Origin: Thioalbus denitrificans
GTDB taxonomy: Bacteria; Pseudomonadota; Gammaproteobacteria; DSM-26407
Assembly (NCBI RefSeq): GCF_003337735.1
Contig: NZ_QPJY01000003.1
Span: 1 to 64,000, forward strand
DNA: 64,000 nt
Reading direction: 5' to 3'
The notes under the pieces were generated by a model. It was not told the origin of the DNA, did no database searches, and saw only the letters and a program-made list of their open reading frames with translations. This document shows, in pieces, positions 1 through 12,653 of the stretch. Within the stretch, counting starts at the first letter, position 1; the number at the start of each line of letters is the position of its first letter. The position numbers and the translations under genes were made by a program.

Positions 1-70
1 CAGCGACGATAGCCTCTATCACAGCGCAATCCTTTTAGACAGGTTTACAGTATGCTCGGAACAAACGGTT

Positions 71-155
71 AAAAAGGTCGGTGACAAATGGTAATAATTA
101 GTATTTGTCACCGACCCCTTTTCGCTGCCGCTTTTCGCTGACCCCTTTTCGCTGG
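71..155. repeat. Palindrome plus three 13-bp tandem repeats inside a broken attC
   Basis: A 14-bp perfect inverted repeat (76-89 and 103-116, arm GGTCGGTGACAAAT) with an AT-rich loop is followed by about three tandem copies of a CCCCTTTTCGCTG-like 13-mer (115-154). It lies where the rest of the attC of the second integron cassette should be, so it probably disrupted or replaced that site. No transposase is visible. The palindrome resembles a small non-autonomous insertion or REP-type unit; this is inference. Confidence 0.6.
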
Positions 156-163
156 AATGAAGG

Positions 164-170
164 GTTAGCT
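164..170 (-). other. attC R'' core of second integron cassette (site otherwise disrupted)
   Basis: On the minus strand AGCTAAC follows the stop codon of the 176-808 gene by a few bases. It is the exact reverse complement of GTTAGCT at the start of the same cassette (814-820). In integron cassettes the R'' site is complementary to the cassette's own R' site, so this marks the 3' end of the cassette. The remainder of the attC hairpin is not recognisable. Confidence 0.6.
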
Positions 171-175
171 TTCAT

Positions 176-808
176 TTAGCGGTTCCCGATGAAGTACCAA
201 TTACCACCAAACGACTCTATTTCAGTACCCGGTTCACCCGCATCACCAAACTGTTCTGGTCTACCTCCGTCTGGAACCCATAAGAACCCGGAGTAGTTAT
301 CGAGAATGCCGCGGAAGGTGAAGAAAAATACATAAGGGTTGCTGGATGGGCCTTCAACAAGAATTTCGTCACCCCCCATGGAAACGCCAGAATCTGTTGG
401 AAGCGCGATCAGTTTGTCGTTGTGCGCGACGTTAGGTGCGAAGGTGCCGGACTTCACCTTTTCTACCACTTGCTCTCGCGCTACCTTATTTAAGTTGAAA
501 TTGGCATACAGCCAAAGCTGGGTGAATGGGACAAAGAAAGCGACGAGTAGCGTGCCGATTGAAACCATCAATGGGGCAAAGGCAGATGCACCTTTACTCC
601 TATGGCGATAGGCGTGGGCGGATCCCAAGACAGCCGAGATCACGACTAGGAGCCACACCAAGCCGAGCAATGGCCCACCGAGAAACGGTGTAAGGGCATC
701 GATGATGTCCCATTGAAACACGAGGGACAGCAACAGCAGGAGTGCTGAAATAATGCTGAAATACAACGTCTTGCTTACCCGTGTTGATTGAACTGACAGT
801 GTCGACAT
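176..808 (-). CDS. Integron cassette gene: membrane protein of unknown function
   Basis: A 210-residue protein I do not recognise. Three hydrophobic segments (about residues 15-37, 42-62 and 77-102) are followed by a soluble C-terminal half rich in Gly, Asp and aromatic residues (FFFTFRGILDN, SFGGNWYFIG), so it is probably an inner-membrane protein with an exposed C-terminal domain. The ATG lies only 5 bp from the cassette core site GTTAGCTC and has no clear ribosome-binding site, which is usual for cassette genes. Codon and base use are clearly more AT-rich than in the chromosomal genes to the right, in keeping with acquisition through an integron. Function unknown. Confidence 0.75.
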   Translation of the reverse strand: MSTLSVQSTRVSKTLYFSIISALLLLLSLVFQWDIIDALTPFLGGPLLGLVWLLVVISAVLGSAHAYRHRSKGASAFAPLMVSIGTLLVAFFVPFTQLWLYANFNLNKVAREQVVEKVKSGTFAPNVAHNDKLIALPTDSGVSMGGDEILVEGPSSNPYVFFFTFRGILDNYSGFLWVPDGGRPEQFGDAGEPGTEIESFGGNWYFIGNR

Positions 809-812
809 ATGA

Positions 813-884
813 GAGCTAACGTTTAAATCAGCCGACCAAAAAGCGCGCAGCGGTTTTTGGTCGGCTGAATTTACTTGTTAGAAC
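813..884 (-). other. attC recombination site (integron)
   Basis: This 72-bp imperfect palindrome has outer cores GTTCTAAC (877-884, minus strand) and GTTAGCTC (813-820, minus strand), and an inner stem of CAGCCGACCAAAAA (829-842) against TTTTTGGTCGGCTG (854-867). That is the architecture of integron attC sites: R'' and L'' arms, a variable loop, then L' and R' arms. It sits between two minus-strand cassette genes. The R'' core GTTCTAAC is exactly complementary to GTTAGAAC at the start of the preceding cassette (2027-2034). Confidence 0.85.
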
Positions 885-1111
885 ACAATCAAACCAAAAA
901 GCCAGTTTATTACTTTCACTGCAAGTAGCACGATCACTGAACGAAGACATTGTTTTGCCATCGAATTTGAGCACTGTCTGCAGCGCTCCTTTTGACACGT
1001 AGTTCGCATAACTCACCCTCAAACTCACCCGAAGTTCGTGCCCCATTTTCCTGATAAGGCTGGGGTTATCGAGGGATGGCGAACTACAGATAGAATTCCG
1101 GAACATTTTTA

Positions 1112-2020
1112 CTACATCGCGTTTCCGGAATCGGTTTCTTCATTTTTTGTTCCGGCAACCAAGTCGGCAAGTGCTTTGGATAACTCGACTTGCCGCCACA
1201 GTCGCCTCGCCATGGTCCAATCGGTGAATATCTCCTTGATCTTTGGATTAGTGACTTTTCTTAGCCGCTCTGTTGTATCGACCTCATCGAGAGGCCAAAT
1301 TGCATTAGAAATCACGTTGTTTGTAAATCGAGCCTTGTTGAGACGAGCCCAAAATTGGAGGTCGAAGGCCTGCAAAACACCGTAATCACGCCATGTTGCA
1401 TAGTCTCGAGTAGAGTACGGATTTTTTGCTTCCCCTGATTCCGCACGAGCTCCAGCCAACCAAACCTCAAACGCAATCTTTAGAGTTTCGTCATCTTGCT
1501 CCAGATCGACAACAAGGGGGAACCCCGATATCACCTCAGAGGGATTAATTGGTTCTGATTTCCAATCTATAAGTTCTCCGAACGATTTCCTTTTTTGTGC
1601 TTTTAATGTTTCGGGCAGTTCGGTGAACAATTTTCCTGGTGTCTGAGATTGCCGGAAAGTATTGAGTTCTGAAAAAAGATTTGAGCCCTGAGGAGAACTA
1701 CTTATTACCGCGGCGAGGTACAAAGCATCGAATCCACTCGGCTCTTTAACCCCCCATAGATCAGAAATATCCCCCAAAGATGAGGCCAATGCGCCTTTTG
1801 TATAGTTTTCATTTACAACAAGGCTATCGAAAAGTTCTTTGGCATGTGGGATGTCGTCGGTGTTCTCAAGGACTGTTTGCACCGAAAGCCTCATTACGAT
1901 TTCATCTAGCCACCGCTCTTCCTCCAAGCCTTGATAATAGTGCTTGGATTTGAACCAAGGGGGCAAATCATCCTTAGCTTTTAATGTGGTCAGTTTTTTC
2001 TCGGCTCTACCCATGACCAT
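1112..2020 (-). CDS. Integron cassette gene: hypothetical protein, possibly DUF6387-like
   Basis: A 302-residue soluble protein without signal peptide or membrane segment. The N-terminus (LPPWFKSKHYYQGLEEERW) recalls the DUF6387 family, whose members begin with a similar Pro-Trp-Phe motif, but I cannot confirm this. It is rich in charged residues and Trp with no catalytic motif I know. The start chosen (2020) is 7 bp from the cassette core GTTAGAAC; an alternative ATG lies at 2014. About 230 bp separate its stop from the attC, an unusually long cassette 3' region. Base use is AT-rich like its neighbour. Function unknown. Confidence 0.75.
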   Translation of the reverse strand: MVMGRAEKKLTTLKAKDDLPPWFKSKHYYQGLEEERWLDEIVMRLSVQTVLENTDDIPHAKELFDSLVVNENYTKGALASSLGDISDLWGVKEPSGFDALYLAAVISSSPQGSNLFSELNTFRQSQTPGKLFTELPETLKAQKRKSFGELIDWKSEPINPSEVISGFPLVVDLEQDDETLKIAFEVWLAGARAESGEAKNPYSTRDYATWRDYGVLQAFDLQFWARLNKARFTNNVISNAIWPLDEVDTTERLRKVTNPKIKEIFTDWTMARRLWRQVELSKALADLVAGTKNEETDSGNAM

Positions 2021-2026
2021 TTTCTT

Positions 2027-2034
2027 GTTCTAAC
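2027..2034 (-). other. Cassette boundary core site (R')
   Basis: GTTAGAAC on the minus strand, just upstream of the first cassette gene. It is an 8/8 reverse complement of the R'' core at 877-884, which fixes the limits of the first cassette. No attC-like hairpin lies upstream of it, so this may be an attI remnant or a secondary insertion site. Nothing resembling an integron integrase is seen in 2035-2436 on either strand. Confidence 0.65.
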
Positions 2035-2269
2035 AGTACAAAACAACGGAACATTGCTGTATATCGCCCATATCAGGTAAACGTCGGCCTATCTCGCACC
2101 AGCAAACCTCCAGGAACTCGCGGATACATAACGCTCACCCCGGCTTTTCAGCAGGTTACACAATCCATCCTGGGGCGAAACACGAACGGGTGCAGCGTGA
2201 TATACGGCCAATTTCCATTTATCAATGGCCAGCACAACGCTTCTCACCTCGTCGTCAACCAAACCCCAA

Positions 2270-2308
2270 AACAAAAAAGGCCCGCCCCGATCCCCCGAGG
2301 CGAGCCCT
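2270..2308 (-). terminator. Rho-independent terminator after nrdJb
   Basis: On the minus strand a GC-rich stem (GGGCTCGCCTCGG against TCGGGGCGGGCC, with G-U pairs) is followed by TTTTTTGTTTT. It lies about 130 bp beyond the nrdJb stop. The 2035-2436 interval holds otherwise only a short palindromic tract near 2400-2425 (GCGCCTTGGCGCCTTGGCG) and no convincing gene. Confidence 0.7.
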
Positions 2309-2436
2309 TCCCGATTCAACCCACGCTCTCCCTGCGCATCATATCCATCACCCCATCCCCTGGCTCACCTTCATCCCGTCACCCTGCCCTCTTCAACCTT
2401 TGCGCCTTGGCGCCTTGGCGTTAAACAAAACCCGAA

Positions 2437-3147
2437 TCACCCGCACTTCGACTCCCCGCAGTTCAAACACGTCAGGCAGTTGTCCATGACGATCATGGCC
2501 TTGGTGTTGCACTTGGTGCAGAGCTGGGCGCCCTCGGGGAACTTGGCCTCCTCGGTGGACTCGTTCTGCTTGCTGAGCTTGCTTTCGTACTCGGCGCGCT
2601 TCTGCTCGATGAGCTTCTTCTGGTGCTCGTCGAGGCTGTCGTCCTTGAGCATGCCGATCTTCTTCAGGTGGGTCTCGATGACGTCCCCGATCTCGCTCAC
2701 CAGCGAGGGGCAGAACTTGCCGCCCTTCTTGAAGTAGCCGCCGCGGGGGTCGAACACGGAGTGCATCTCCTCCACCAGGAAGGTGACGTCGCCGCCCTTG
2801 CGGAACACGGCGCTGATGATGCGGGTCAGCGCCACGATCCACTGGAAGTGGTCCATGTTCTTCGAGTTGATGAACACCTCGAAGGGGCGGCGGTGCTCGT
2901 GCTCGGTGCCCTCGTTGAGGATGATGTCGTTGATGGTCACGTACAGCGCGTGCTCGGAGAGCGGCGTCTTGACCTTGTAGGTGGAGCCGATGAGGATGTC
3001 CGGGCGCTCGAGCTTCTCGTGCATGTGCACGATGTTGTCGGTCGCCTTCAGCTTCTTGGCCGCCGCGGCCTCCTGGGCCCTGGCCGCCTCCTCCTCCTTG
3101 TTGGCCACCGCGTACTTGGCAATCTTCTTTTCGATCTTGATGGTCAT
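2437..3147 (-). CDS. nrdJb: Class II ribonucleotide reductase, C-terminal subunit NrdJb
   Basis: This 236-residue protein is the separately encoded C-terminal part of a B12-dependent ribonucleotide reductase, as in Pseudomonas. It contains the TSCPD-type region (about residues 40-170, with LTRIISAVFRKGGD and the CPSL motif) and ends in a Cys-rich tail, CTKCNTKAMI then CLTCLNCGESKC, typical of the zinc-ribbon or thiol-relay end of class II enzymes. The ATG at 3147 is chosen because MTIKIEKKI is preceded by AGGAA at proper spacing; the upstream extension is low-complexity read-through. It lies 58 bp after nrdJa in the same operon, before a terminator. Confidence 0.92.
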   Translation of the reverse strand: MTIKIEKKIAKYAVANKEEEAARAQEAAAAKKLKATDNIVHMHEKLERPDILIGSTYKVKTPLSEHALYVTINDIILNEGTEHEHRRPFEVFINSKNMDHFQWIVALTRIISAVFRKGGDVTFLVEEMHSVFDPRGGYFKKGGKFCPSLVSEIGDVIETHLKKIGMLKDDSLDEHQKKLIEQKRAEYESKLSKQNESTEEAKFPEGAQLCTKCNTKAMIVMDNCLTCLNCGESKCG

Positions 3148-3205
3148 GGTTCCTGTCTCCCGTGTCGGTCGGTCTTGTCGATGCTGCTGAGTGCCGGCCG
3201 GCACG

Positions 3206-5362
3206 TCAGAACTTGCCGTAGTAGCCTTCCTTGAGGGCGTCGTAGAGGTTGGCGGCGGTGTGGATCTCGCCGTCGTACTCGATCTCCTCGTTGCCCCTGG
3301 CCTCGACGACGGTGCCGTCCTCGAGGGTGAAGCGGTAGATGGTGCCCTCCAGGTCCTTCTCCTTCACCAGCACGCCCTGGAACGCCTCGGGGTTGAAGCG
3401 GAAGGTGGTGCAGCCCTTCAGCCCCTGCTCGTAGGCGTACATGTAGATGTCCTTGAAGTCCTCGAAGGGGTAGTCGGTGGGGACGTTCGCGGTCTTGGAG
3501 ATGGAGGAGTCGATCCACTTCTGCGCCGCGGCCTGGACGTCCACGTGCTCCTTGGGGGAGATGTCCTCGGCGGTGATGAAGTACTCGGGCAATATCTCCT
3601 CGGCCTGCTCCGAGTAGGGCATGGCGCGGGGGTTGACCAGCTCGCGGTAGGCGAGCAGCTCGAAGGAGAAGACGTCCACCTTCTCCTTGGACTTCTTGCC
3701 CTCGCGGATGACGTTGCGCGAGTAGTGGTGGGCGAAGCTCGGCTCGATGCCGTTGCTAGCGTTGTTGGCCAGGCTCAGCGAGATGGTGCCGGTGGGCGCG
3801 ATGGAGCTGTGGTGGGTGAAGCGCGCGCCGGTGGCGGCGAGCTTCTCCACCAGCTCCGGGGCCACCTCGGCCACCCGCTGCATGTAGCGGCTGTACTTCG
3901 CGTGCAGCACCTTGCCCTTGACCTTGTCGCCCGCCTTGTAGCCGTCCTTCGCCATCTCCGGGCGCCGGGCCAGCATGGCGGCGGTGACCTCGAACTCCCG
4001 CTCCATGATGGGGGCGGGCCCCTTCTCCTCGGCCAGTTCCAGGGCCGTCTCCCAGCCCATCAGGGCGAGCTCGCGGGTGACCCGGTCGGTGAACTCCAGC
4101 GAGTCGGGCGAGCCGTACTTCATGCCCAGCAGGGTCATGGTGGAGCCCAGCCCCAGGAAGCCCATGCCGTGGCGGCGCTTGCTCAGGATCTCGTCCACCT
4201 GCTCCTTGAGCGGCAGGCCGTTGATGTCCACCACGTTGTCGAGCATGCGGGTGAAGATGCCCACCACCTTGCGGTACTCGTCCCAGTCGAAGCGGGCCTT
4301 GTCGCTGAAGGGGTCGCGCACGAACTTGGTCAGGTTGACCGAGCCCAGCAGGCAGGCGCCGTAGGGGGGCAGCGGCTGTTCGCCGCAGGGGTTGGTGGCG
4401 CGGACGTTCTCGCAGAACCAGTTGTTGTTCATCTCGTTGACCTTGTCGATCAGGATGAACCCGGGCTCGGCGAAGTCGTAGGTGGCGGTCATGATCATGT
4501 CCCACAGCCGGCGGGCGGGGATGACCTTGTAGATGCGGCACGCCACCTTCCCCTCGTCGTTGACGTGGTAGGAGTTGGTGGTAGGCCACTCGCGCCAGGT
4601 GACCTTGGAGGCGTCGGTGAGGTCCACGCCGTCGGCCTCGATCTCGCGGGCGGTCATGGGGAAGGCGAGCGGCCACTCGGCGCCGTGGCGCACCGCCTCC
4701 ATGAACTCGCGGGTCACCAGCAGGGAGAGGTTGAACTGGCGCAGCCGGCCATGCTCGCGCTTGGCGCGGATGAACTCCATCACGTCCGGGTGGCCCACGT
4801 CGAAGGTGGCCATCTGCGCCCCGCGGCGGCCGCCGGCGGAGGAGACGGTGAAGCACATCTTGTCGTAGATATCCATGAACGACAGCGGCCCGGAGGTGTA
4901 GGCGCCGGCCCCGCTCACGTAGGCGCCCTTGGGGCGCAGGGTGGAGAACTCGTAGCCGATGCCGCAGCCCGCCTTCAGGGTCAGGCCCGCCTCGTGCACC
5001 TTCTCCAGGATGTCGTCCATGGAGTCGCGGATGGTGCCCGACACCGTGCAGTTGATGGTGGAGGTGGCGGGCTTGTGGGCCAGGGCGCCGGCGTTGGAGG
5101 TGATGCGCCCGGCGGGGATGGCCCCGCGGCGCAGCGCCCACAGGAACTTCTTGTACCACTCCTCCTGCTTCTCGGGCGTCCGCTCCACCTCGGCCAGCGC
5201 CTTCGCCACCCGCTTGTAGGTCTCGTCCACCGTCCGGTCGACGGGCTTGCCGTCCTTGGTCTTCAGGCGGTACTTCTTGTCCCAGATGTCCTGGGAGGCG
5301 GGCTGGAAGGGAATGTCCATGTTCTCGTGGCTCGGGACGGCGTGCAGGTGCGCGGACTCCAT
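3206..5362 (-). CDS. nrdJa: Adenosylcobalamin-dependent (class II) ribonucleotide reductase NrdJa
   Basis: The 718-residue catalytic subunit reduces ribonucleotides to deoxyribonucleotides with a radical from adenosylcobalamin, independent of oxygen. Recognisable motifs are the active-site segment TINCTVSG (about residue 104), NPCGEQPLPPYGAC (about residue 325) holding the radical Cys and the Glu, and the phosphate-binding region TGTISLSLANN. It is split from the C-terminal subunit NrdJb downstream. The ATG at 5362 follows GGAGAGA; upstream in-frame codons have no such site. NrdR-type boxes upstream suggest control by NrdR. The absence of class I nrdAB here fits a lifestyle at low or changing oxygen. 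Confidence 0.95.
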   Translation of the reverse strand: MESAHLHAVPSHENMDIPFQPASQDIWDKKYRLKTKDGKPVDRTVDETYKRVAKALAEVERTPEKQEEWYKKFLWALRRGAIPAGRITSNAGALAHKPATSTINCTVSGTIRDSMDDILEKVHEAGLTLKAGCGIGYEFSTLRPKGAYVSGAGAYTSGPLSFMDIYDKMCFTVSSAGGRRGAQMATFDVGHPDVMEFIRAKREHGRLRQFNLSLLVTREFMEAVRHGAEWPLAFPMTAREIEADGVDLTDASKVTWREWPTTNSYHVNDEGKVACRIYKVIPARRLWDMIMTATYDFAEPGFILIDKVNEMNNNWFCENVRATNPCGEQPLPPYGACLLGSVNLTKFVRDPFSDKARFDWDEYRKVVGIFTRMLDNVVDINGLPLKEQVDEILSKRRHGMGFLGLGSTMTLLGMKYGSPDSLEFTDRVTRELALMGWETALELAEEKGPAPIMEREFEVTAAMLARRPEMAKDGYKAGDKVKGKVLHAKYSRYMQRVAEVAPELVEKLAATGARFTHHSSIAPTGTISLSLANNASNGIEPSFAHHYSRNVIREGKKSKEKVDVFSFELLAYRELVNPRAMPYSEQAEEILPEYFITAEDISPKEHVDVQAAAQKWIDSSISKTANVPTDYPFEDFKDIYMYAYEQGLKGCTTFRFNPEAFQGVLVKEKDLEGTIYRFTLEDGTVVEARGNEEIEYDGEIHTAANLYDALKEGYYGKF

Positions 5363-5442
5363 GGGGCGTCTCTCCGTCTTATTCTTTAGACCATTGGGAG
5401 GGGTTGCAGCGGTATCCGACGCGCCGGACACCTGAAAACAAA

Positions 5443-5459
5443 ACCACTATATGTTGTGG
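5443..5459. promoter_or_regulatory. NrdR box 1
   Basis: CCACTATATGTTGTGG (5444-5459) matches the NrdR operator pattern acaCWATATWWWGtgt. It lies about 80 bp upstream of the nrdJa start, where NrdR, the ATP/dATP-sensing repressor of ribonucleotide reductases, would act. Confidence 0.75.
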
Positions 5460-5620
5460 TTGGGAGGTAAGGTTAGGCCCCAATAGGGGGGCTGTCAACC
5501 GGATTTCCGCATATTGTCACAGATTGTTTTTTGTCAATTATTCAACCAGTTATGCCATATCTGTGAAGATATTCACGGTTTTTCAGGGGCTTATTGAGCC
5601 GTTGGCGCCCCGATGTGCGA

Positions 5621-5637
5621 ACACAACATATTGTAGT
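5621..5637. promoter_or_regulatory. NrdR box 2
   Basis: ACACAACATATTGTAGT is a second good match to the NrdR palindrome, 177 bp from the first. NrdR boxes usually come as pairs about three helical turns apart, so this wide spacing is unusual. It lies between nrdJa and hsp20, about 80 bp upstream of the sigma32-like promoter. Confidence 0.6.
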
Positions 5638-5716
5638 CCTAATATTCCGATTTTCAGCCGCTTGGGGAAGTTGGCGGGCGCTCACTTCCACCCCCGCCCA
5701 CCGCCCGGCCACACCC

Positions 5717-5745
5717 CTTGAAATCGTCCGGGCCGCGCCCATCTT
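5717..5745 (+). promoter_or_regulatory. Sigma32-type heat-shock promoter
   Basis: CTTGAAA (5717-5723) and CCCATCTT (5738-5745), 14 bp apart, match the sigma32 -35 and -10 elements (CTTGAAA and CCCCATNT). It lies about 45 bp upstream of the Hsp20 gene and would drive the chaperone operon on heat or protein-folding stress. Confidence 0.75.
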
Positions 5746-5790
5746 GATGTCAGGCATGAACAATCAACCGGACTGACAGGAGGTAACACC

Positions 5791-6228
5791 ATGACCATCG
5801 TCCGTTACGACCCCTGGGCGACCCTGAACCAGCTCCAGGAAGAGATGAACCGCCTGTTCAAGCGCGCGGGCGACGAGGACACCGGCACGGTGGTGACCAG
5901 CGACTGGGCGCCGCCGGTGGACATCAAGGAGGAGAAGGACCGCTTCGTGCTGCTGGCCGATGTGCCGGGCGTGGACCCGAAGGACATCGAGATCACCATG
6001 GAAAACGGCGTGCTCGCCATCCGCGGTGAGCGTAAGCTCGAGCCGGAGGAGGAGCGCAAGGGCTTCCACCGCATGGAGCGGGCCCGCGGCGTCTTCTACC
6101 GCCGCTTCGCCCTGCCGGACACGGCGGACGCCGAGAAGATCGCCGCCAGCGGCCGCAACGGCGTGCTGGAGGTGGTGATTCCGAAGCAGGAGAAGGTCCA
6201 GCCGCGCAAGATCGTGGTGGAGGGCTGA
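5791..6228 (+). CDS. hsp20: Small heat-shock protein, Hsp20 family (first copy)
   Basis: A 145-residue cytoplasmic holdase. The N-terminal arm (VRYDPWATLNQLQEEMNRLF) is the usual class of sHsp start, followed by the alpha-crystallin domain (about residues 38-135) with PPVDIKEEKDRFVLLADVPG and the ENGVLAIRGER loop, then a short C-terminal tail with a weak I-x-I/V motif (RKIVV). Strong ribosome-binding site ACAGGAGGT. It is first in the operon hsp20-cbpA-hsp20-degP behind a sigma32-like promoter. Confidence 0.95.
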   Translation: MTIVRYDPWATLNQLQEEMNRLFKRAGDEDTGTVVTSDWAPPVDIKEEKDRFVLLADVPGVDPKDIEITMENGVLAIRGERKLEPEEERKGFHRMERARGVFYRRFALPDTADAEKIAASGRNGVLEVVIPKQEKVQPRKIVVEG

Positions 6229-6243
6229 TCAGAACCCGCAGAC

Positions 6244-6276
6244 GGCCCCGCCCCGGAGTCCGCTTCGGGCGGGGCC
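6244..6276 (+). terminator. Stem-loop between hsp20 and cbpA (attenuator-like)
   Basis: GGCCCCGCCC (6244-6253) pairs perfectly with GGGCGGGGCC (6267-6276). No T-run follows, so it is more likely an RNA-processing or attenuation hairpin that sets more hsp20 than cbpA transcript than a full terminator. Confidence 0.5.
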
Positions 6277-6290
6277 GGGGGAACTGATAG

Positions 6291-7259
6291 ATGGAATACA
6301 AGGACTACTACAAGATTCTCGGCGTGGAACGCGGCGCGTCCCAGGAGGAGATCAAGCGCGCCTTCCGCAAGCTGGCGCGCAAGTACCACCCGGATGTGAG
6401 CAAGGAGAAGGACGCCGAGGCGCGCTTCAAGGAGGTCAACGAGGCCAACGAGGTGCTCGGCGACCCCGGGAAGCGGCGCGCCTACGACCAGCTCGGCAGC
6501 AGCTGGCGCTCGGGCCAGGAGTTCCGGCCGCCGCCGGGCTGGGAGGGCCGCACGGAGTTCCGCCACGGCTTCGGCGGGGCCGGGGGCGGCGCCGAGGAGT
6601 TCAGCGACTTCTTCGAGAGCCTGTTCGGCGGCGGCGGGCCGTTCGCCGGCGGCGGCAGCCCCTTCGGCGGCCGCCGCGGCAGCGCCTTCCGCATGCCCGG
6701 CGAGGACCAGCAGGCCAAGCTGCTGCTGACCCTGGAGGAGGCCTACCAGGGCGTGACCCGGACCCTGTCGCTGCAGGTGCCCGAGGCCGACGCCCAGGGG
6801 CGGGTCACGGTGCGCAACCGCAAGCTGCAGGTGAAGATTCCGGCCGGCGCCACCGAGGGCCGGCAGATCCGCCTCGCCGGCCAGGGCAGCCCCGGCATGG
6901 GCGGCGGCCCGCGCGGGGACCTCTACCTCACGGTGGAGATCCAGCCCCACCCCTTCTATCGCACCGAGGGCAAGGACATCCACCTGGATCTGCCCGTGGC
7001 GCCTTGGGAAGCGGCCCTGGGCGCGAAGGTGACCGTTCCCACCCTGGGCGGCAAGGTGGATCTCGGCATCCCCGCCGGCTCCCAGTCGGGGCGCACCCTG
7101 CGCCTGAAGGGCCGCGGCCTGCCGGGCCGGCCGGCCGGCGACCAGTACGTGCACCTGAAGATTCTCACGCCGCCGGCGGACTCGGAACAGCTGCGGGAGC
7201 TGTACCGGGAGCTGGAGCGCGCCGCGCCCTTCAACCCCCGGGCGACCCTCGGCGTCTGA
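6291..7259 (+). CDS. cbpA: CbpA-type DnaJ co-chaperone
   Basis: This 322-residue J-domain protein stimulates DnaK ATPase. The J domain occupies residues 5-70 with the HPD motif at 33-35. A Gly/Phe-rich linker (about 95-140) follows, then two C-terminal substrate-binding beta domains (about 145-310). The four CxxCxGxG zinc modules of true DnaJ are absent, which identifies the CbpA class. It is co-directional with and 62 bp behind hsp20, and ahead of a second hsp20 and a DegP-like protease. Confidence 0.94.
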
Positions 7260-7271
7260 GCCGCCGCGGAC

Positions 7272-7297
7272 CCCGCGCCGGACGGAACCGGCGCGGG
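7272..7297 (+). terminator. Stem-loop after cbpA
   Basis: A perfect 10-bp stem, CCCGCGCCGG (7272-7281) and CCGGCGCGGG (7288-7297), directly behind the cbpA stop. There is no U-tract, so it may act as a partial terminator or an mRNA-stabilising hairpin before the second hsp20. Confidence 0.5.
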
Positions 7298-7398
7298 ATG
7301 AAACTATTCCACACGATTGGTGCACTAACCGGGCAGCAGGCCCAGACAGGCCAGTCCTGCTGGCCGAACCCGCCACTCGAACCATCAAGGAGGGAGAC

Positions 7399-7902
7399 AT
7401 GAGCACCCTGAATCAGCTGCGGCACGGCCTGGAGCGGGCCTGGGACAGCCTCGCGGAGGGCTGGCGCCAGCTGCTCGACCACGCCAGCGACGCCCTCACC
7501 CGCTTCACCCCGGTGCGCCATGCCCAGGAGCTGGAGACCGCCGATGAACTGATCGCCGGCCGCGCCTCCCGCTGGGGCCTGCTGGCCGCCCAGGTGCAGG
7601 AGACCGACGACGCGGTGGTGGTGCGGCTGGAGGCGCCGGGCCTGGAGCCGGAGGCGTTCGACATCAGCGTGGTGGACGACTACCTGGTGGTGCAGGGCGA
7701 GAAGCGCGTGCAGCGGGAGAGCCGGGAGGGCCGCTACACCCTCATGGAGTGCGCCTACGGCCGCTTCGAGCGCGCCATTCCCCTGCCGGTGCCGGTGGAC
7801 GAGGACGCCGCCCGCGCCAGCTACCGCCACGGCGTGCTGCGCATCGAGCTGCCGCGCCTGCGGGCGCCCGGCGCCCGCCGCATCCAGGTCGACGTGGACT
7901 GA
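7399..7902 (+). CDS. Small heat-shock protein, Hsp20 family (second, divergent copy)
   Basis: A 167-residue protein whose alpha-crystallin domain is seen at about residues 65-165 (VQETDDAVVVRLEAPGLEP, DYLVVQGEKR, YGRFERAIPLP). It has a longer, different N-terminal arm of about 65 residues and ends in RIQVDVD without a clear IxI tail. It shares little with the first Hsp20, so the operon holds two different sHsps rather than a recent duplication. Strong site AAGGAGGGAGAC before ATG. It stops 10 bp before the degP-like gene. Confidence 0.9.
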   Translation: MSTLNQLRHGLERAWDSLAEGWRQLLDHASDALTRFTPVRHAQELETADELIAGRASRWGLLAAQVQETDDAVVVRLEAPGLEPEAFDISVVDDYLVVQGEKRVQRESREGRYTLMECAYGRFERAIPLPVPVDEDAARASYRHGVLRIELPRLRAPGARRIQVDVD

Positions 7903-7912
7903 GGGAGGAACC

Positions 7913-9271
7913 ATGGCATTACGACGGACCGCGACGCTCCTGCTCCTGCTGTTGACCCTCGGCGCCGGGCTCCCCGCCGCGGCGGCCCTGCCCGCCGCCG
8001 TGGAGGGAGAGCCCCTGCCCACCCTCGCCCCCATGCTGGAGCGGGTCACCCCGGCGGTGGTGAACATCTCCACCGAAAGCCGGGTGCTGGTGCGGGACAA
8101 CCCCCTGCTCAGCGATCCCTTCTTCCGCCACTTCTTCGATCTGCCCGCCCGGCCGCGGGAGCGCACGGCCCAGAGCCTGGGCTCCGGGGTGATCGTGGAC
8201 GCGGCCAAGGGCTACATCCTCACCAACCACCACGTGGTGGACAAGGCGGTGCAGATCACCGTCACCCTCAACGACGGGCGCCACTTCAGCGCCGAACTGG
8301 TGGGGGCCGACCCCGAGTCCGACGTCGCCGTCATCAGGATCCCGGCCGAGGGCCTCACCCAGCTCACGGTGTCCGACTCCGACGCGCTGCGGGTGGGGGA
8401 CTTCGTGGTGGCCATCGGCAACCCCTTCGGGCTGGGCCAGACGGTCACCTCCGGCATCGTCAGCGCGCTGGGGCGCAGCGGGCTCGGCATCGAGGGCTAC
8501 GAGGACTTCATCCAGACCGACGCCTCCATCAACCCGGGCAACTCGGGCGGGGCGCTGGTGAACCTGCGCGGCGAGCTGGTGGGGGTGAACACCGCCATCT
8601 TCTCCAAGTCGGGCGGCAACATGGGCATCGGGTTCGCCATCCCCAGCAACATGGCCCGGGTGGTGATGGAGCAGTTGCTGGAGTACGGCGAGGTGCAGCG
8701 CGGGCTGCTGGGCGTGAGCGCCCAGGATCTGACCGTGGAGCTGGCCCAGGCCTTCGGCATCAGCTCCGGCGGCGGCGCGGTGGTCATCGGCGTCACCGCC
8801 GGTTCGCCGGCGGAGAAGGCGGGGCTGAAGGTGGGGGATGTCATCCTCGCGCTGAACGGCACCCGCACCAACAGCGCCGGGGAGATGCGCAACAACCTCG
8901 GCCTGCTGCGTCCGGGCACCCGGGTGGAGATGCGGGTCTGGCGCGCCGGCAAGGAGTTCGACGCCACCGCCGTGATCGTCGAGCAGAGCGCCCTGCAGCA
9001 GGACGGCGGCGATCTCGACCCGCGGCTGAAGGGCGCCGTCCTCGACGAGTTCACCGCCGATGACGGCTCCAGCCGCCTCCGGGTGGAGGACGTGGCCGGG
9101 CAGAGCCCCGCCGCCGCCCTGGGCCTGCGCCCCGGCGACATCTTCCTCTCCGTCAACAACCAGGCCGTCACCGACACCGCCAGCCTCGGCCAGGCGCTCC
9201 AGCGCGACTCCCGCGGCATCCTCATGCGCCTGCAGCGGGGCAACACCCTGCTGACCCTGCGGGTGCGGTAA
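7913..9271 (+). CDS. degP: Periplasmic serine protease/chaperone, DegP/DegQ (HtrA) family
   Basis: A 452-residue exported protease. The signal peptide (residues 1-25, hydrophobic TLLLLLLTLGAGL) is followed by the trypsin-like domain with catalytic His107, Asp137 and Ser211 (GNSGG), then two PDZ domains (about 255-345 and 365-450). It degrades or refolds misfolded periplasmic proteins. The start follows GAGGGAGGAACC, 10 bp behind the second hsp20, so it is the last gene of the heat-shock operon. Coupling cytoplasmic sHsps and a periplasmic HtrA in one transcript is unusual. Confidence 0.93.
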   Translation: MALRRTATLLLLLLTLGAGLPAAAALPAAVEGEPLPTLAPMLERVTPAVVNISTESRVLVRDNPLLSDPFFRHFFDLPARPRERTAQSLGSGVIVDAAKGYILTNHHVVDKAVQITVTLNDGRHFSAELVGADPESDVAVIRIPAEGLTQLTVSDSDALRVGDFVVAIGNPFGLGQTVTSGIVSALGRSGLGIEGYEDFIQTDASINPGNSGGALVNLRGELVGVNTAIFSKSGGNMGIGFAIPSNMARVVMEQLLEYGEVQRGLLGVSAQDLTVELAQAFGISSGGGAVVIGVTAGSPAEKAGLKVGDVILALNGTRTNSAGEMRNNLGLLRPGTRVEMRVWRAGKEFDATAVIVEQSALQQDGGDLDPRLKGAVLDEFTADDGSSRLRVEDVAGQSPAAALGLRPGDIFLSVNNQAVTDTASLGQALQRDSRGILMRLQRGNTLLTLRVR

Positions 9272-9353
9272 AGGATAGTTGCGAGTGGCGAGGCAGTAGG
9301 TGCAGATTCATCTGCCCGCCTGCGCCAGATGGACACGCCGCCCCCTCCCCCAG

Positions 9354-9376
9354 CCCCCTCCCGCAAGGGGAGGGGG
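9354..9376. repeat. GC-rich hairpin behind degP
   Basis: CCCCCTCCC and GGGGAGGGGG form a tight stem with a 4-base GCAA-type loop. No T-run follows. It may end the heat-shock transcript weakly or be one of the dispersed extragenic palindromes in this genome. Confidence 0.4.
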
Positions 9377-9445
9377 AGCAGGCCGTGCCGCACCCAAGCA
9401 TTCATGGTGATGGGTGATGCGTTGTGGGTGATGGGACGTTCGGCA

Positions 9446-9504
9446 TCACCCTTCACCCTTCACCCTTCACCCCTTACCCCTTACCCCTTACCCCTCACCC
9501 TTCA
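9446..9504. repeat. Heptamer tandem repeat tract
   Basis: About eight consecutive 7-bp units drifting from CACCCTT to TACCCCT. The same heptamer family recurs at 10406, 13655, 31087, 41081 and 51536. Together with the hairpin at 9354 it fills most of the gap 9272-9570, which has no gene. Confidence 0.75.
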
Positions 9505-9570
9505 CGGATCACGCATTCATCCGGCCAGGCAGCGCCCCCCCCTCAGCCCCCTGCGAAGACCAACCAAAAT

Positions 9571-9595
9571 ATACTTGACTATTACAGTAGGCAAT
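9571..9595 (+). promoter_or_regulatory. IscR type-1 binding site overlapping a -35 element
   Basis: The 25-bp palindrome (left half ATACTTGACTAT, right half CAGTAGGCAAT) agrees at 23 of 25 positions with the type-1 IscR consensus as I recall it (ATASYYGACTRWWWYAGTCRRSTAT). It contains TTGACT (9575-9580), which can serve as the -35 box, as in the iscR promoter itself. It implies control by Fe-S-loaded IscR of the downstream gene. Confidence 0.7.
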
Positions 9596-9662
9596 ATTAG
9601 CCTTATGAGCGTATAAGCAGTTACTTGTTTACTGATACAGGCAGCAACAGGAGGTAGTGACT

Positions 9663-10112
9663 ATGTCCGGTCTGATTCCCAACTTCCCGCTGGACGGCGT
9701 TGTGACCATCAACCGCGTGATCCTCAAGCCGGAATACACGGTGGAGGACCTGGAGGAACGGGTGGCGATGCTGTGCGAGAACGTCAAGACCTACCACTCC
9801 GACACCGGTTTCATCGGCGGCTTCGTGGCGCTGAACAGCGGCGCCGTCTCCAACGAGGGCTCCACCATCGGCCAGGCCGTGGAGAACCCCCTGAAGGGCA
9901 AGGAGGCCCTGATCATCACCTTCTGGAAGAGCTTCGAGGACCATGAGCGCTCCCACCGCTCCGACACCTTCCAGCCCCTGTTCCGCGAGGTGCTGGCGCT
10001 GTGCGAGAACGGCAACGAGGAGATCGCCTACGAGATGCTCTGGTCGGGCACCGCCTACGACCCCGAGGCCGCGAAGGCCGCCCGCGAGGCGAAGGAGAAG
10101 TACGCCGCCTGA
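9663..10112 (+). CDS. Small sulfur oxygenase reductase-like iron protein (single domain)
   Basis: A 149-residue soluble protein. Residues 87-99 (FWKSFEDHERSHR) and 123-124 (YE) reproduce the mononuclear iron site of archaeal and bacterial sulfur oxygenase reductase, which reads FWKDWKDHEEMHR with His86/His90 and Glu114; here the ligands would be His94, His98 and Glu124. Only two cysteines occur (Cys38 and Cys114), near the positions of SOR Cys31 and Cys101/104. SOR has about 310 residues and two such halves; this protein has one ferredoxin-like half, so it may assemble as a dimeric alpha+beta barrel. GGAGG lies 8 bp before the ATG at 9663; an in-frame GTG at 9657 is too close. Gene is monocistronic with its own terminator. 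The function is inferred; an ABM-type barrel protein of other function is the alternative. Confidence 0.7.
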   Translation: MSGLIPNFPLDGVVTINRVILKPEYTVEDLEERVAMLCENVKTYHSDTGFIGGFVALNSGAVSNEGSTIGQAVENPLKGKEALIITFWKSFEDHERSHRSDTFQPLFREVLALCENGNEEIAYEMLWSGTAYDPEAAKAAREAKEKYAA

Positions 10113-10163
10113 CCCCGGCAACCCTCCCTCCCGCCAGCAGACGCTGGCATTGCCCCCCCCTTG

Positions 10164-10191
10164 GCCGCCCGCCCCCGGGCGGCATTTTTTT
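10164..10191 (+). terminator. Rho-independent terminator
   Basis: GCCGCCCG (10164-10171) and CGGGCGGC (10176-10183) form an 8-bp stem followed by ATTTTTTT. It closes the SOR-like transcription unit. Confidence 0.85.
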
Positions 10192-10328
10192 GCCTGTTGT
10201 CCTCAGATGGTGGCTATTCTTCTGTCATTCATTGCATGATCGACGCAAAAGACACCCGGTTTGAGGTGTAACGACGCTGGCCACCGGCACCTGGCCTCCG
10301 GGCAGCCGGCAGCGTCCCATCGCCCCGG

Positions 10329-10402
10329 GGGCGGGCCTCCCACAGGCCTCGGCCAGGCCGCCGGGGCCGGGGAATCCTTGTGGGAGGGGCGCCCCGCCGC
10401 GA
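10329..10402. repeat. REP-like imperfect palindrome
   Basis: GGCGGGCCTCCCACA and TGTGGGAGGGGCGCCCCGCC form the arms of a 70-bp imperfect palindrome. The TGTGGGAG...CCGCGA outline resembles the widespread Pseudomonas and Xanthomonas type of extragenic palindrome. Confidence 0.5.
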
Positions 10403-10405
10403 TTC

Positions 10406-10466
10406 CCTTCACCCTTCACCCTTCACCCTTCACCCTTCACCCTTCACCCTTCACCCTTCACCCTTT
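10406..10466. repeat. Heptamer tandem repeat (TTCACCC), about eight copies
   Basis: An almost perfect 7-bp tandem repeat ending 22 bp before the stop codon of cbbO. It is the longest clean tract of this family in the window and a likely length-variable locus. Confidence 0.9.
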
Positions 10467-10487
10467 CTCCCTTAACCACCGAACCAG

Positions 10488-12653
10488 TCACGACGTCAGC
10501 TTGCGGTAGATGTCGGAGATGCGCAGGGGGAGCTTGGTGACATCGTCGATGACGGTGTAGCCGGCGGGGCCGTACATGTGCTTGAGGTAGTCGGCGGCCT
10601 CGGTGTCGAGGGTGACACAGTAGGCGTGGATGCCGTCGCGGCGGGCCTCCATGAGGGCCTGGCGGGTGTCCTCGATGCCGTATTCGCCGCGGTAGCCGTC
10701 GAGATCCTCGGGCTTGCCGTCGGAGAGGGTGACCAGCACCCGGATGCGGGCGTCCACCCGGGCCAGCAGCCCGCTCAGGTGGCGGATGGCGGTGCCCATG
10801 CGGGTGTAGTCCTTGGGCGCGATGCCCGCGATGCGCCGGTGCACCGTCTCGTCGTAGGCCTCGTCGAAGCGCTTGACCCGGAACACCTCGCAGCGGTTGC
10901 GGGTCATGCCCGAGAAGCCGTAGATGGCGTAGCGGTCGCCGAGGCTCTCCAGGGCCTCGCACAGCAGCACCAGGGCCTCGCGCTCGGCGTCGTTGACCCA
11001 GCCCTTGGTGGAGCCGCTCATGTCCACCATGAACATCACCGCGATGTCCCGCTCCAGCCGGTGCATGCGGGTGTAGAGGCCCACCGGGCTCTCCTGCCCG
11101 GCGCGGGCGTCGGCGTAGGCGTCCACCACCGCGTCGATGTCCACGTCGTCGCCCTCGGGCTGGCGCTTGAGCAGCTTGTTCTCCCCGCGCAGCACCTCGA
11201 AGGTGCGGCGGATGCTCTTCACCAGCCCCCGGTACTTGGCCTGGGCCGCGGGGAAGAATGCCTCCGGGCCCGGTTCCACGGTGAGCTCGCGCAGCTGGCA
11301 CCAGCCCTTGCGGTAGTGGCCCCGCTCCATGTCCCACTCGTCGTAGAAGAGCATGCCCTCGTTGCCGGCCATGCCGGAGCGGGCGCGGCGCTGGGCCTCC
11401 CGCTCCTCGTCCACCCGGTACTCGCCCTCTCCCGCGGCGTGGAGGTATTCGTCGGGAATCTCGCCCAGGTCCAGCAGGATGGAGTTGATGAGGTTCTGCA
11501 CCTCCTCCGGCGGCGCCACCGGCTTGTCCTCCAGGTAGAGTTCCACCCGCATGCCTCCCGGCCGGGCGGGGTCGGGCCGCTGGCGCAGCTCCAGCTTCAT
11601 GGGCCGGCGCTCCGTCTCCCCGGCCTCGCCGCGGGCATCCCGGGTGCGCTCCTCCAGCTCCTGGCGCAGGCGCACCAGGGCGGTGGTCAGCTGCCGCTCC
11701 TCGCGCTCGATGCGCGCGGCCATGACCGCGGCGGCCCGCTCGGGGCGGAGTTCGCCCTGGTAGCAGAGGGTCTCGGGCAGCGCCGGCTGCTCCCACAGCC
11801 GCCGGACCCAGTCCAGGACATCCGCCGCACCGGCCCCGGGCGCCGCCAGCGCCGCGGCCGCCCCGGCCCACGCGCCGGGCAGGGGACCGCCCCCCAGCAC
11901 CGCCTCCAGGGCGTCCATCTCGCGGGCCACGCCGGGCAGCTCGTGGCGCACCCGGGCATCCAGGCGCACCGCCTCCAGGCGGTGGAACAGGCGCAGGGCC
12001 CGGTCGGGATCGGGGTAGGCCGCCAGCGACTCCGCCAAAGGCAGGCGCCAGGTGCCGAAGCGGATCTGGGCCCACTGGTGGACGGCCATCGCCTTGTAGA
12101 GCTGGAAGTTCCGCTCCCGCGCGGGCAGCACGTTGAGCAGCGGCGGCAGGTAGAGGGTCTCGGTGTCGGTGAAGGGGATCTCGGACTCGTCGAGCTTCAG
12201 CACCCGCCCGCTGAGGCCGGTGACGAACCGCTCCAGCACCCCGGCGATGTCCGCCAGCGCCACCCCGGTGTAGCGGGCGGCGCGGTCGGCGGCGAACTGC
12301 TCCACCTCGGCCAGGGCCCGGAACGCCACCGCCAGGCCCTTGCGGTCGTAGGCGTCGACGGCCTGCACCAGCCACTCCTCGACCCCCTCGGTGTCCATCA
12401 GCTCGAAGGCCCGGTCCACCCGCTCGGCGAACTGGAAGGCGAGCTCGAGGCTGGTGCGCGCCACCACCTTGATCCAGTGCAGCACGAAATCCTGCTGCAC
12501 GCCCTCGAGGGAGGCGATGGCCAGCGCCGGGGCGACGGAGTGGCGCGAGGAGATGTCGGTCTCGAACACCTCCTCCAGGTGCAGCTCCACCTCGTCGGCG
12601 CTCATGGCGCGGTGGGAGAAGCGCCGCCTGGCCCGGTACCGCCCTTCCGTCAT
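10488..12653 (-). CDS. cbbO: CbbO/NorD-type von Willebrand factor A protein (Rubisco-activase adaptor)
   Basis: This 721-residue cytoplasmic protein has a long helical N-terminal region and a C-terminal VWA domain (about residues 515-720) with the metal-ion motif DMSGSTKGW, then TLSDGKPED. CbbO is the adaptor that docks the AAA+ ring CbbQ on Rubisco to remove inhibitory sugar phosphates; the NorD relative serves nitric oxide reductase. The CbbQ gene 1 kb upstream favours the pair CbbQO. The start at 12653 is preceded by GGGGAACGACC; an alternative ATG is at 12605. No Rubisco gene is in the window, and the pair is split by an oppositely oriented gene. Confidence 0.85.
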   Translation of the reverse strand: MTEGRYRARRRFSHRAMSADEVELHLEEVFETDISSRHSVAPALAIASLEGVQQDFVLHWIKVVARTSLELAFQFAERVDRAFELMDTEGVEEWLVQAVDAYDRKGLAVAFRALAEVEQFAADRAARYTGVALADIAGVLERFVTGLSGRVLKLDESEIPFTDTETLYLPPLLNVLPARERNFQLYKAMAVHQWAQIRFGTWRLPLAESLAAYPDPDRALRLFHRLEAVRLDARVRHELPGVAREMDALEAVLGGGPLPGAWAGAAAALAAPGAGAADVLDWVRRLWEQPALPETLCYQGELRPERAAAVMAARIEREERQLTTALVRLRQELEERTRDARGEAGETERRPMKLELRQRPDPARPGGMRVELYLEDKPVAPPEEVQNLINSILLDLGEIPDEYLHAAGEGEYRVDEEREAQRRARSGMAGNEGMLFYDEWDMERGHYRKGWCQLRELTVEPGPEAFFPAAQAKYRGLVKSIRRTFEVLRGENKLLKRQPEGDDVDIDAVVDAYADARAGQESPVGLYTRMHRLERDIAVMFMVDMSGSTKGWVNDAEREALVLLCEALESLGDRYAIYGFSGMTRNRCEVFRVKRFDEAYDETVHRRIAGIAPKDYTRMGTAIRHLSGLLARVDARIRVLVTLSDGKPEDLDGYRGEYGIEDTRQALMEARRDGIHAYCVTLDTEAADYLKHMYGPAGYTVIDDVTKLPLRISDIYRKLTS

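Follow-up and report, generated by a model that had tools for sequence, protein, structure and literature searches.

The first two kilobases of a 64,000-nucleotide stretch of the Thioalbus denitrificans genome (positions 1 to 64,000 of contig NZ_QPJY01000003.1, referred to here as C3; the whole stretch is called the window) contain two low-GC genes, both on the minus strand within positions 1-2034 and bounded by integron cores. The genome amounts to 4.14 Mb in 21 contigs and, because window position 1 is base 1 of C3, nothing to the left of the window can be read. The original prediction, made from the sequence alone, was that these are two minus-strand integron cassettes with exactly complementary cores and no integrase, captured as AT-rich genes beside a GC-rich chromosome. 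The composition agrees with this proposal: the GC content rises from 44-49% over the first 2 kb to 54% over the following 0.5 kb, and further on it mostly lies at 60-75%. So do the cores. On the plus strand, GTTCTAAC at 2027-2034 and GTTAGAAC at 877-884 are exact complements (8/8), as are AGCTAAC at 814-820 and GTTAGCT at 164-170 (7/7); GTTCTAAC and AGCTAAC each occur three times in the 64 kb when both strands are counted. Read on the minus strand, cassette 1 starts with GTTAGAAC (2034-2027) and ends with the R'' core GTTCTAAC (884-877), and cassette 2 starts with GTTAGCT (820-814) and has AGCTAAC (170-164) as its R''. In both, the start is complementary to the cassette's own R'', by which gene cassettes are recognized. 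Cassette 1 covers positions 820-2033, beginning with the TT of its core and closing with the G of the attC, and encodes a 302-residue protein (1112-2020, minus strand) of the DUF6387 family, whose function is unknown (Pfam PF19924, E = 9.9e-38, 130.6 bits for a cut-off of 28.9). This protein has no match in PADLOC or NCBIfam; no relative was confirmed among the genome contigs searched (48 pattern stretches), and none was found on plasmids. Cassette 2 (153-819, minus strand), whose attC is incomplete, encodes a 210-residue protein with a hydrophobic N-terminal half (176-808, minus strand), which belongs to no family: it has no Pfam match above cut-off and none in NCBIfam or PADLOC, and two weak matches in Priestia were seen. 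An Rfam scan of the window at gathering cut-offs gave no matches.

The two cassettes are joined by an attC on the minus strand (814-883, R'' TTCTAAC ... R' GTTAGCT). This site was evaluated with a covariance model (R1) built from 22 attCs of arrays adjoining an intact integron integrase gene (intI) in other genomes of the class, with neither the window nor any other sequence of its genome included. The training candidates were obtained by matching cassette starts to their own R''; 33 were kept and 22 used in the model, six doubtful ones and all those longer than 92 bases having been set aside beforehand. A finder requiring R'' and R' to be identical within one attC, which overlooked real arrays, was dropped. 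Model R1 matches positions 814-883 over all of its 67 positions, that is, with the full R''/L''/L'/R' architecture (33.6 bits; E = 4.4e-6 for 79 kb searched, 1.8e-7 for 3.2 kb with filters off and 2.3e-4 genome-wide), and the attC that had been proposed between the cassettes is thereby borne out. Folded as DNA, the strand 813-884 reaches -26.2 kcal/mol, against -8.0 for shuffled sequences (z = -8.5). The same model detects four attCs on contig C4 (48.8, 43.3, 42.5 and 20.4 bits) and at least three further ones at C3:265113-265181 (58.1 bits), C1:339724-339814 (47.9 bits) and C1:340159-340227 (47.3 bits), as well as one terminal site on C16 (29.7 bits) and weaker ones, of 22.5 bits or less, on C8; the genome-wide run scored 150 of the 5085 first-look candidates, and this list is a lower bound. 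The integrase-less array at C1:339-344 kb (L090, L127), with two strong attCs, adjoins a thyA-like gene, named by reading the sequence.

At the far end of cassette 2, the exact complementarity of GTTAGCT and AGCTAAC stands, but the attC to which this R'' (AGCTAAC, 164-170, minus strand) belongs is only a half site: about 11 bases remain after R'' before a repetitive extragenic palindromic (REP) element begins, and model R1 gives no match over it (3.2 kb, filters off). GTTAGCT, the R' partner of this cassette, differs from GTTRRRY at one base. The interrupting palindrome, GGTCGGTGACAAAT...ATTTGTCACCGACC at about 57-152, is repeated elsewhere in the genome and belongs to the AAAGGGGTCGGTGACAA family, the 17-mer of which has 22 genome matches at up to 2 mismatches and none in the reversed control. 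Palindromes of this family are present in many low-GC cassette islands, at window 57-152 and on C1, C3, C5, C8, C9 and C19. Since REP copies flank a Y1_Tnp (IS200-like) gene at C9:34681-35370, this genome likely has a system made up of REP elements and a REP transposase. Insertion of REP specifically into attC was also considered; the other REP sites inspected gave no clear rule, and such a specificity is not claimed. With its second attC broken and the contig ending at that point, the visible part of the array does not reach the minimum of two attCs which, according to the accessible text of the IntegronFinder 2 paper (PMC9024848), defines by default a cluster of attC sites lacking integron-integrases (CALIN). 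The CALIN-type assignment made earlier holds for cassettes without an adjoining integrase, but not in this strict sense.

A search of window 1-12000 revealed nothing resembling intI (best E = 0.38), in keeping with the absence of an integrase that had been noted on the nrdJ side of the cassettes and with the CALIN definition in this respect. The single integron-type intI found in the genome lies on C4 and is broken. There, cassettes read away from an intI-like frame that matches TIGR02249 at positions 1-115 and 236-313 only (239 bits for a cut-off of 265). In an alignment with 14 IntI proteins of other genomes, it lacks about 120 residues, including the block with the YGxGxR box, and shows IHTHVL in place of IYTHVL; YTHVL is present in 13 of these 14 sequences, the exception being a frameshifted copy from Halomonas. 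The YGxGxR box and the tyrosine replaced by His, which is the nucleophile, hold catalytic residues, and the resident IntI is, judging from its sequence, taken as dead. The next-best two full-length frames inspected look like XerD and XerC. Nor is the window array a complete integron, for which a functional intI would be expected in the genome and beside the array. The IntI beside the main attI of Halomonas sp. Y3 (L251 in G274) also appears broken in the alignment, with stops and a lost frame. On the chromosomal side, the array is flanked by a gene for a TSCPD protein (2437-3204, minus strand; Pfam TSCPD), which the original prediction called nrdJb. Relatives of this gene, 60-75% identical, are present in 16 of 37 genomes, the window genome itself included, with no cassettes nearby. 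The comparison of the nrdJb region proposed earlier covered 15 loci of relatives and showed neither an attC nor a relative of either cassette protein nearby. The TSCPD gene has no match in the sole genus mate examined, which therefore provides no proof of an empty site.

The junction at which cassette 1 begins carries an attI-like core, TTCCGTTGTTTTGTACT|GTT (2032-2051, minus strand), whose GTT is the crossover that starts the cassette. The core pattern TTCCRTTGATTTGAACTGTT, searched with up to 3 mismatches, is found at six sites in the genome (C4, C13, three on C9 and the window) and never in the reversed control. The window site has 2 mismatches to the 20-bp core (18/20 bases), and the match stops exactly where cassette 1 begins, as at an attI crossover. 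When the 57 bases preceding each GTT of the 64-kb window were scored, with gaps, against the five other attI copies, the cassette-1 junction ranked first among 1130 GTT sites (score of 34, the next one reaching 13), and a weaker gapped likeness to the copy at C9:130 kb extends to about position 2070. Insertion at a secondary site, which had been offered as an alternative to a CALIN-type array, is not the best reading of this junction, because the 20-bp core recurs only at five other places in the genome, all of them attI-like; a GTT junction of the attG or secondary-site type, without further attI likeness, is not what is seen here. A palindromic stretch, GATATACGGCCAATTTCCATTTATC, at window 2197-2230 resembles stretches located between the C4 intI and attI and upstream of the C13 copy.

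The region that separates the C4 intI from its first cassette, used as a DNA query, retrieved C13:78152-78348 (73%), C9:27156-27218 (92%), C9:130272-130317 (87%), C9:133289-133328 (85%) and, weakly, C3:2201-2222. The C13 and the three C9 copies are alike up to ...TTGATTTGAACT|GTT (AATT|CTT in C9:133289-133328) and then diverge into different genes. Directly behind the first C9 copy (L123) lies a HamA-HamB pair of the Hachiman anti-phage defence system (C9:27195-30759; PADLOC E = 1.8e-122 and 3.8e-296), after which no attC was detected. The cassette start at the crossover of the C13 copy and the left end of C4 have 95 identical bp in common, and 95 bp are also shared by the right ends of C8 and C16. 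Entered from C4/C13, the unit begins with GTTAGGGC; the one entered from C8/C16 shows its complement GCCCTAAC. These contig ends suggest one duplicated cassette present in two arrays. A 7-base tandem repeat (CGGAACA or its complement) terminates 19 of the 40 readable contig ends, counted by eye, and is a main cause of the assembly breaks.

Copies of attI without a full adjoining intI were found in 14 of 27 other intI-bearing genomes. A first joined query was made of the 70 bases preceding the first-cassette crossover beside an intact intI in nine genomes, six of which have extra copies: two in G125 (96% and 95%), two each in G081 and G083, and one each in G127, G022 and G165. No extra copy was found in G212, G041 and G136, nor in the genus mate G001. 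A second joined query, made of the 76-240 bases upstream of intI in 18 genomes, was cruder because its blocks were cut by distance from intI and not by a known crossover, and some copies matched a relative's block best. It revealed orphan copies in eight genomes: Halomonas sp. Y3 (two), H. nitroreducens (three), H. urmiana (two, plus one that adjoins a full intI), a Sedimenticola metagenome-assembled genome (two), G122 (one), G034 (three), G169 (one) and G262 (one). Eight others have no extra copy (G126, G229, G090, G156, G171 and metagenome-assembled genomes of Wenzhouxiangella, Ectothiorhodospiraceae and Salinisphaera). The counts leave out four Endozoicomonas (G277) matches, the short ones in G069 and all others that were short or palindromic, as well as the G276 copy on its contig C76, excluded from the orphans because a full intI adjoins it.

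In 13 copies other than the window, the homology to the intI-side attI has its right-hand limit between -5 and +8 relative to the crossover core and extends on the left over about 40 to about 250 bases (356 in G022); the window site gave no match in this blastn comparison. Judged by eye, 14 of the 15 copies of the second set stop at the GTT core, and the G169 match breaks off about 12 bases before one. The mean identity of the 13 copies is 96% at 0-20 bases from the crossover, 88% at 20-40, 72% at 40-60 (a bin that includes an indel in the G022 copy), 54% at 60-100, 66% at 100-150 and 61% at 150-200, where shuffled controls (single copies) mostly give 45-61% up to 150 bases and 32-47% beyond. 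The conserved stretch of about 60 bp is close in size to attI1, whose length is given as 65 bp in the accessible part of PMC12901181, a resemblance that speaks for past selection for attI function at these sites; since the flanks of several copies exceed the control, a longer stretch was likely inherited in common as well. Downstream attCs were detected after 15 of the 19 testable copies of both sets. They follow, in the right orientation, seven of eight testable copies of the first set at E <=0.003 (L284 reaches only E = 0.44; the G022 copy ends with its contig and was not counted as testable). In the second set, they follow eight of 11 copies at E <=0.05 and at distances of about 0.5 to 6.6 kb, although not all of them need belong to the copy's own array, above all at the longer distances; L322 reaches only E = 0.32, L323 and L327 have no attC downstream, and L328, L331, L333 and L334 are no more than 300 bases away from a contig end and were not counted as testable. 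Fragments of intI are found beside two copies, in G022 (L288, residues 1-74) and on contig C50 of H. urmiana (G276, L326, 76 residues), which fits an origin of these two copies from degraded integrons; the fetched flanks of the other copies contain no trace of intI. The two Halomonas sp. Y3 copies (L320, L321) share the sequence that follows them, and both precede, in the array direction, a distant tyrosine recombinase with about 35% identity to IntI, which may point to an element with attI as its own target.

The reading that we favor is that window 1-2034 is quite probably a short integrase-less array, of the CALIN or 'satellite' type, seated at a diverged extra attI copy of the genome's chromosomal integron. 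It is drawn from the complete attC, the self-complementary ends of the two cassettes, the attI-like core at their junction with the chromosome, five further attI-like sites and a single broken intI. While still active, IntI would have acted in trans, placing cassettes into several attI copies scattered over the chromosome and recombining the folded bottom strand of attC into double-stranded attI as in known integrons, and each of these docks would have taken its own cassettes. The decay of IntI would then have frozen the arrays, and a REP element would later have broken the attC of cassette 2. The copies themselves could stem from a duplication of the integron followed by the loss of intI or from another route, for instance attI pieces carried by delta-attI cassettes, by analogy with class 1 and 2 integrons. 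Several points weigh against this proposal. The window site is 85% identical to the C4 attI in the first 20 bp, beyond which the identity falls to background, and it is the weakest copy apart from C9:133314; because of this drop, the window copy is either much decayed or a lookalike. In addition, the search for attCs downstream of the three C9 copies gave none at E <=1, and no attI core with up to 3 mismatches accompanies the arrays at C1:339 kb and C3:265 kb.

Other scenarios may explain the same junction. The most serious is that the cassettes entered an ordinary secondary (attG) site, a chromosomal GTT that happened to fit the enzyme, in which case the likeness to attI would reflect the preference of the enzyme and not descent. 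Such insertions are described in the accessible text of PMC10127599 and PMC12444791, and the background identity past the first 20 bp and the two arrays without attI core would both be congruent with them. Nevertheless, 18 of 20 bases equal the genome's own attI core, which is present at only six places, the gapped likeness to the C9:130 kb copy extends further, and the better copies, both here and in the other genomes, match attI for about 60 bp, beyond the short GTT-type core of secondary sites; an attG insertion therefore seems unlikely. Somewhat less probable still is that a complete second integron once stood here and degraded through the deletion of its adjoining intI. The intI fragments beside the G022 and G276 C50 copies would fit this kind of remnant, and the palindrome at 2197-2230 resembles the one between intI and attI on C4, but window 1-12000 holds no trace of intI, most other copies have none beside them either, and only about 400 bp separate the array from the TSCPD gene. 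Finally, that the array is a part of the C4 integron torn off by the draft assembly, as might be thought from a contig ending inside it and from C4, C13, C8 and C16 also ending in cassettes, is very improbable, since the array passes uninterrupted into the TSCPD gene of C3, the left end of C3 has no exact overlap of at least 16 bases with other contig ends (C4/C13 and C8/C16 share 95 bp), and the arrays of C3 and C4 each run off their contig to the left and therefore cannot be joined head to tail at these ends.

Beyond this locus, an array at an extra attI copy has wider implications. Outside class 1, attI is poorly described and the standard tool does not detect it. Using each genome's own attI as a query against that genome recovered extra copies in 14 of 27 cases, most of them with cassette arrays, and therefore makes both the origin of CALINs and the action of IntI in trans directly testable. 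These orphan attI docks suggest where many integrase-less cassette clusters come from; accessory genes, such as the Hachiman pair, can stand right behind an attI-like site with no integrase near. One may tentatively imagine that many chromosomal integrons are multi-dock systems, in which one IntI acts in trans on scattered attI copies, each conserved for about 60 bp as far as the crossover and each with a growing array of its own, and that a large share of chromosomal CALINs would be satellite arrays on orphan docks rather than random insertions or decayed integrons, but this generalization is less likely to be right than wrong. A literature search that covered few subscription papers brought up no description of dispersed attI copies as the general foundation of CALINs.

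The window array has features in common with several known systems, compared here as far as the accessible text of the cited papers describes them. With the CALINs of IntegronFinder (PMC9024848), it shares attC-bounded cassettes without an adjoining intI; it differs in showing one complete attC, where the threshold is two, and an attI-like start, which is absent from the CALIN definition. In Xanthomonas, CALINs are located at conserved loci away from intI and are contrasted with attG insertion (PMC12444791). The likeness lies in the presence of several chromosomal integrase-less arrays and in an intI that is truncated or absent in many strains, but no attI is described at the arrays in the available text, whereas an attI-like core is present here. 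Insertions at attG or secondary sites (PMC12444791, PMC10127599) resemble it in having cassettes away from intI and a GTT junction, but the site there is a minimal GTT and the junction here matches the core of the resident attI. The delta-attI-type cassettes of class 1 and 2 integrons (PMC12901181) likewise involve attI pieces away from the primary attI; there, however, the pieces lie downstream of a cassette gene in mobile arrays, while the copies described here head separate chromosomal arrays. The closest precedent is the CALIN of the Shewanella sp. prophage M16-3 (PMC9892861), where the same attI heads a complete integron and an integrase-less array on one replicon. That attI is a 28-bp site within a prophage, whereas in T. 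denitrificans the copies are dispersed over the chromosome and accompanied by a dead intI, a pattern of extra copies that recurs in 14 of 27 other genomes.
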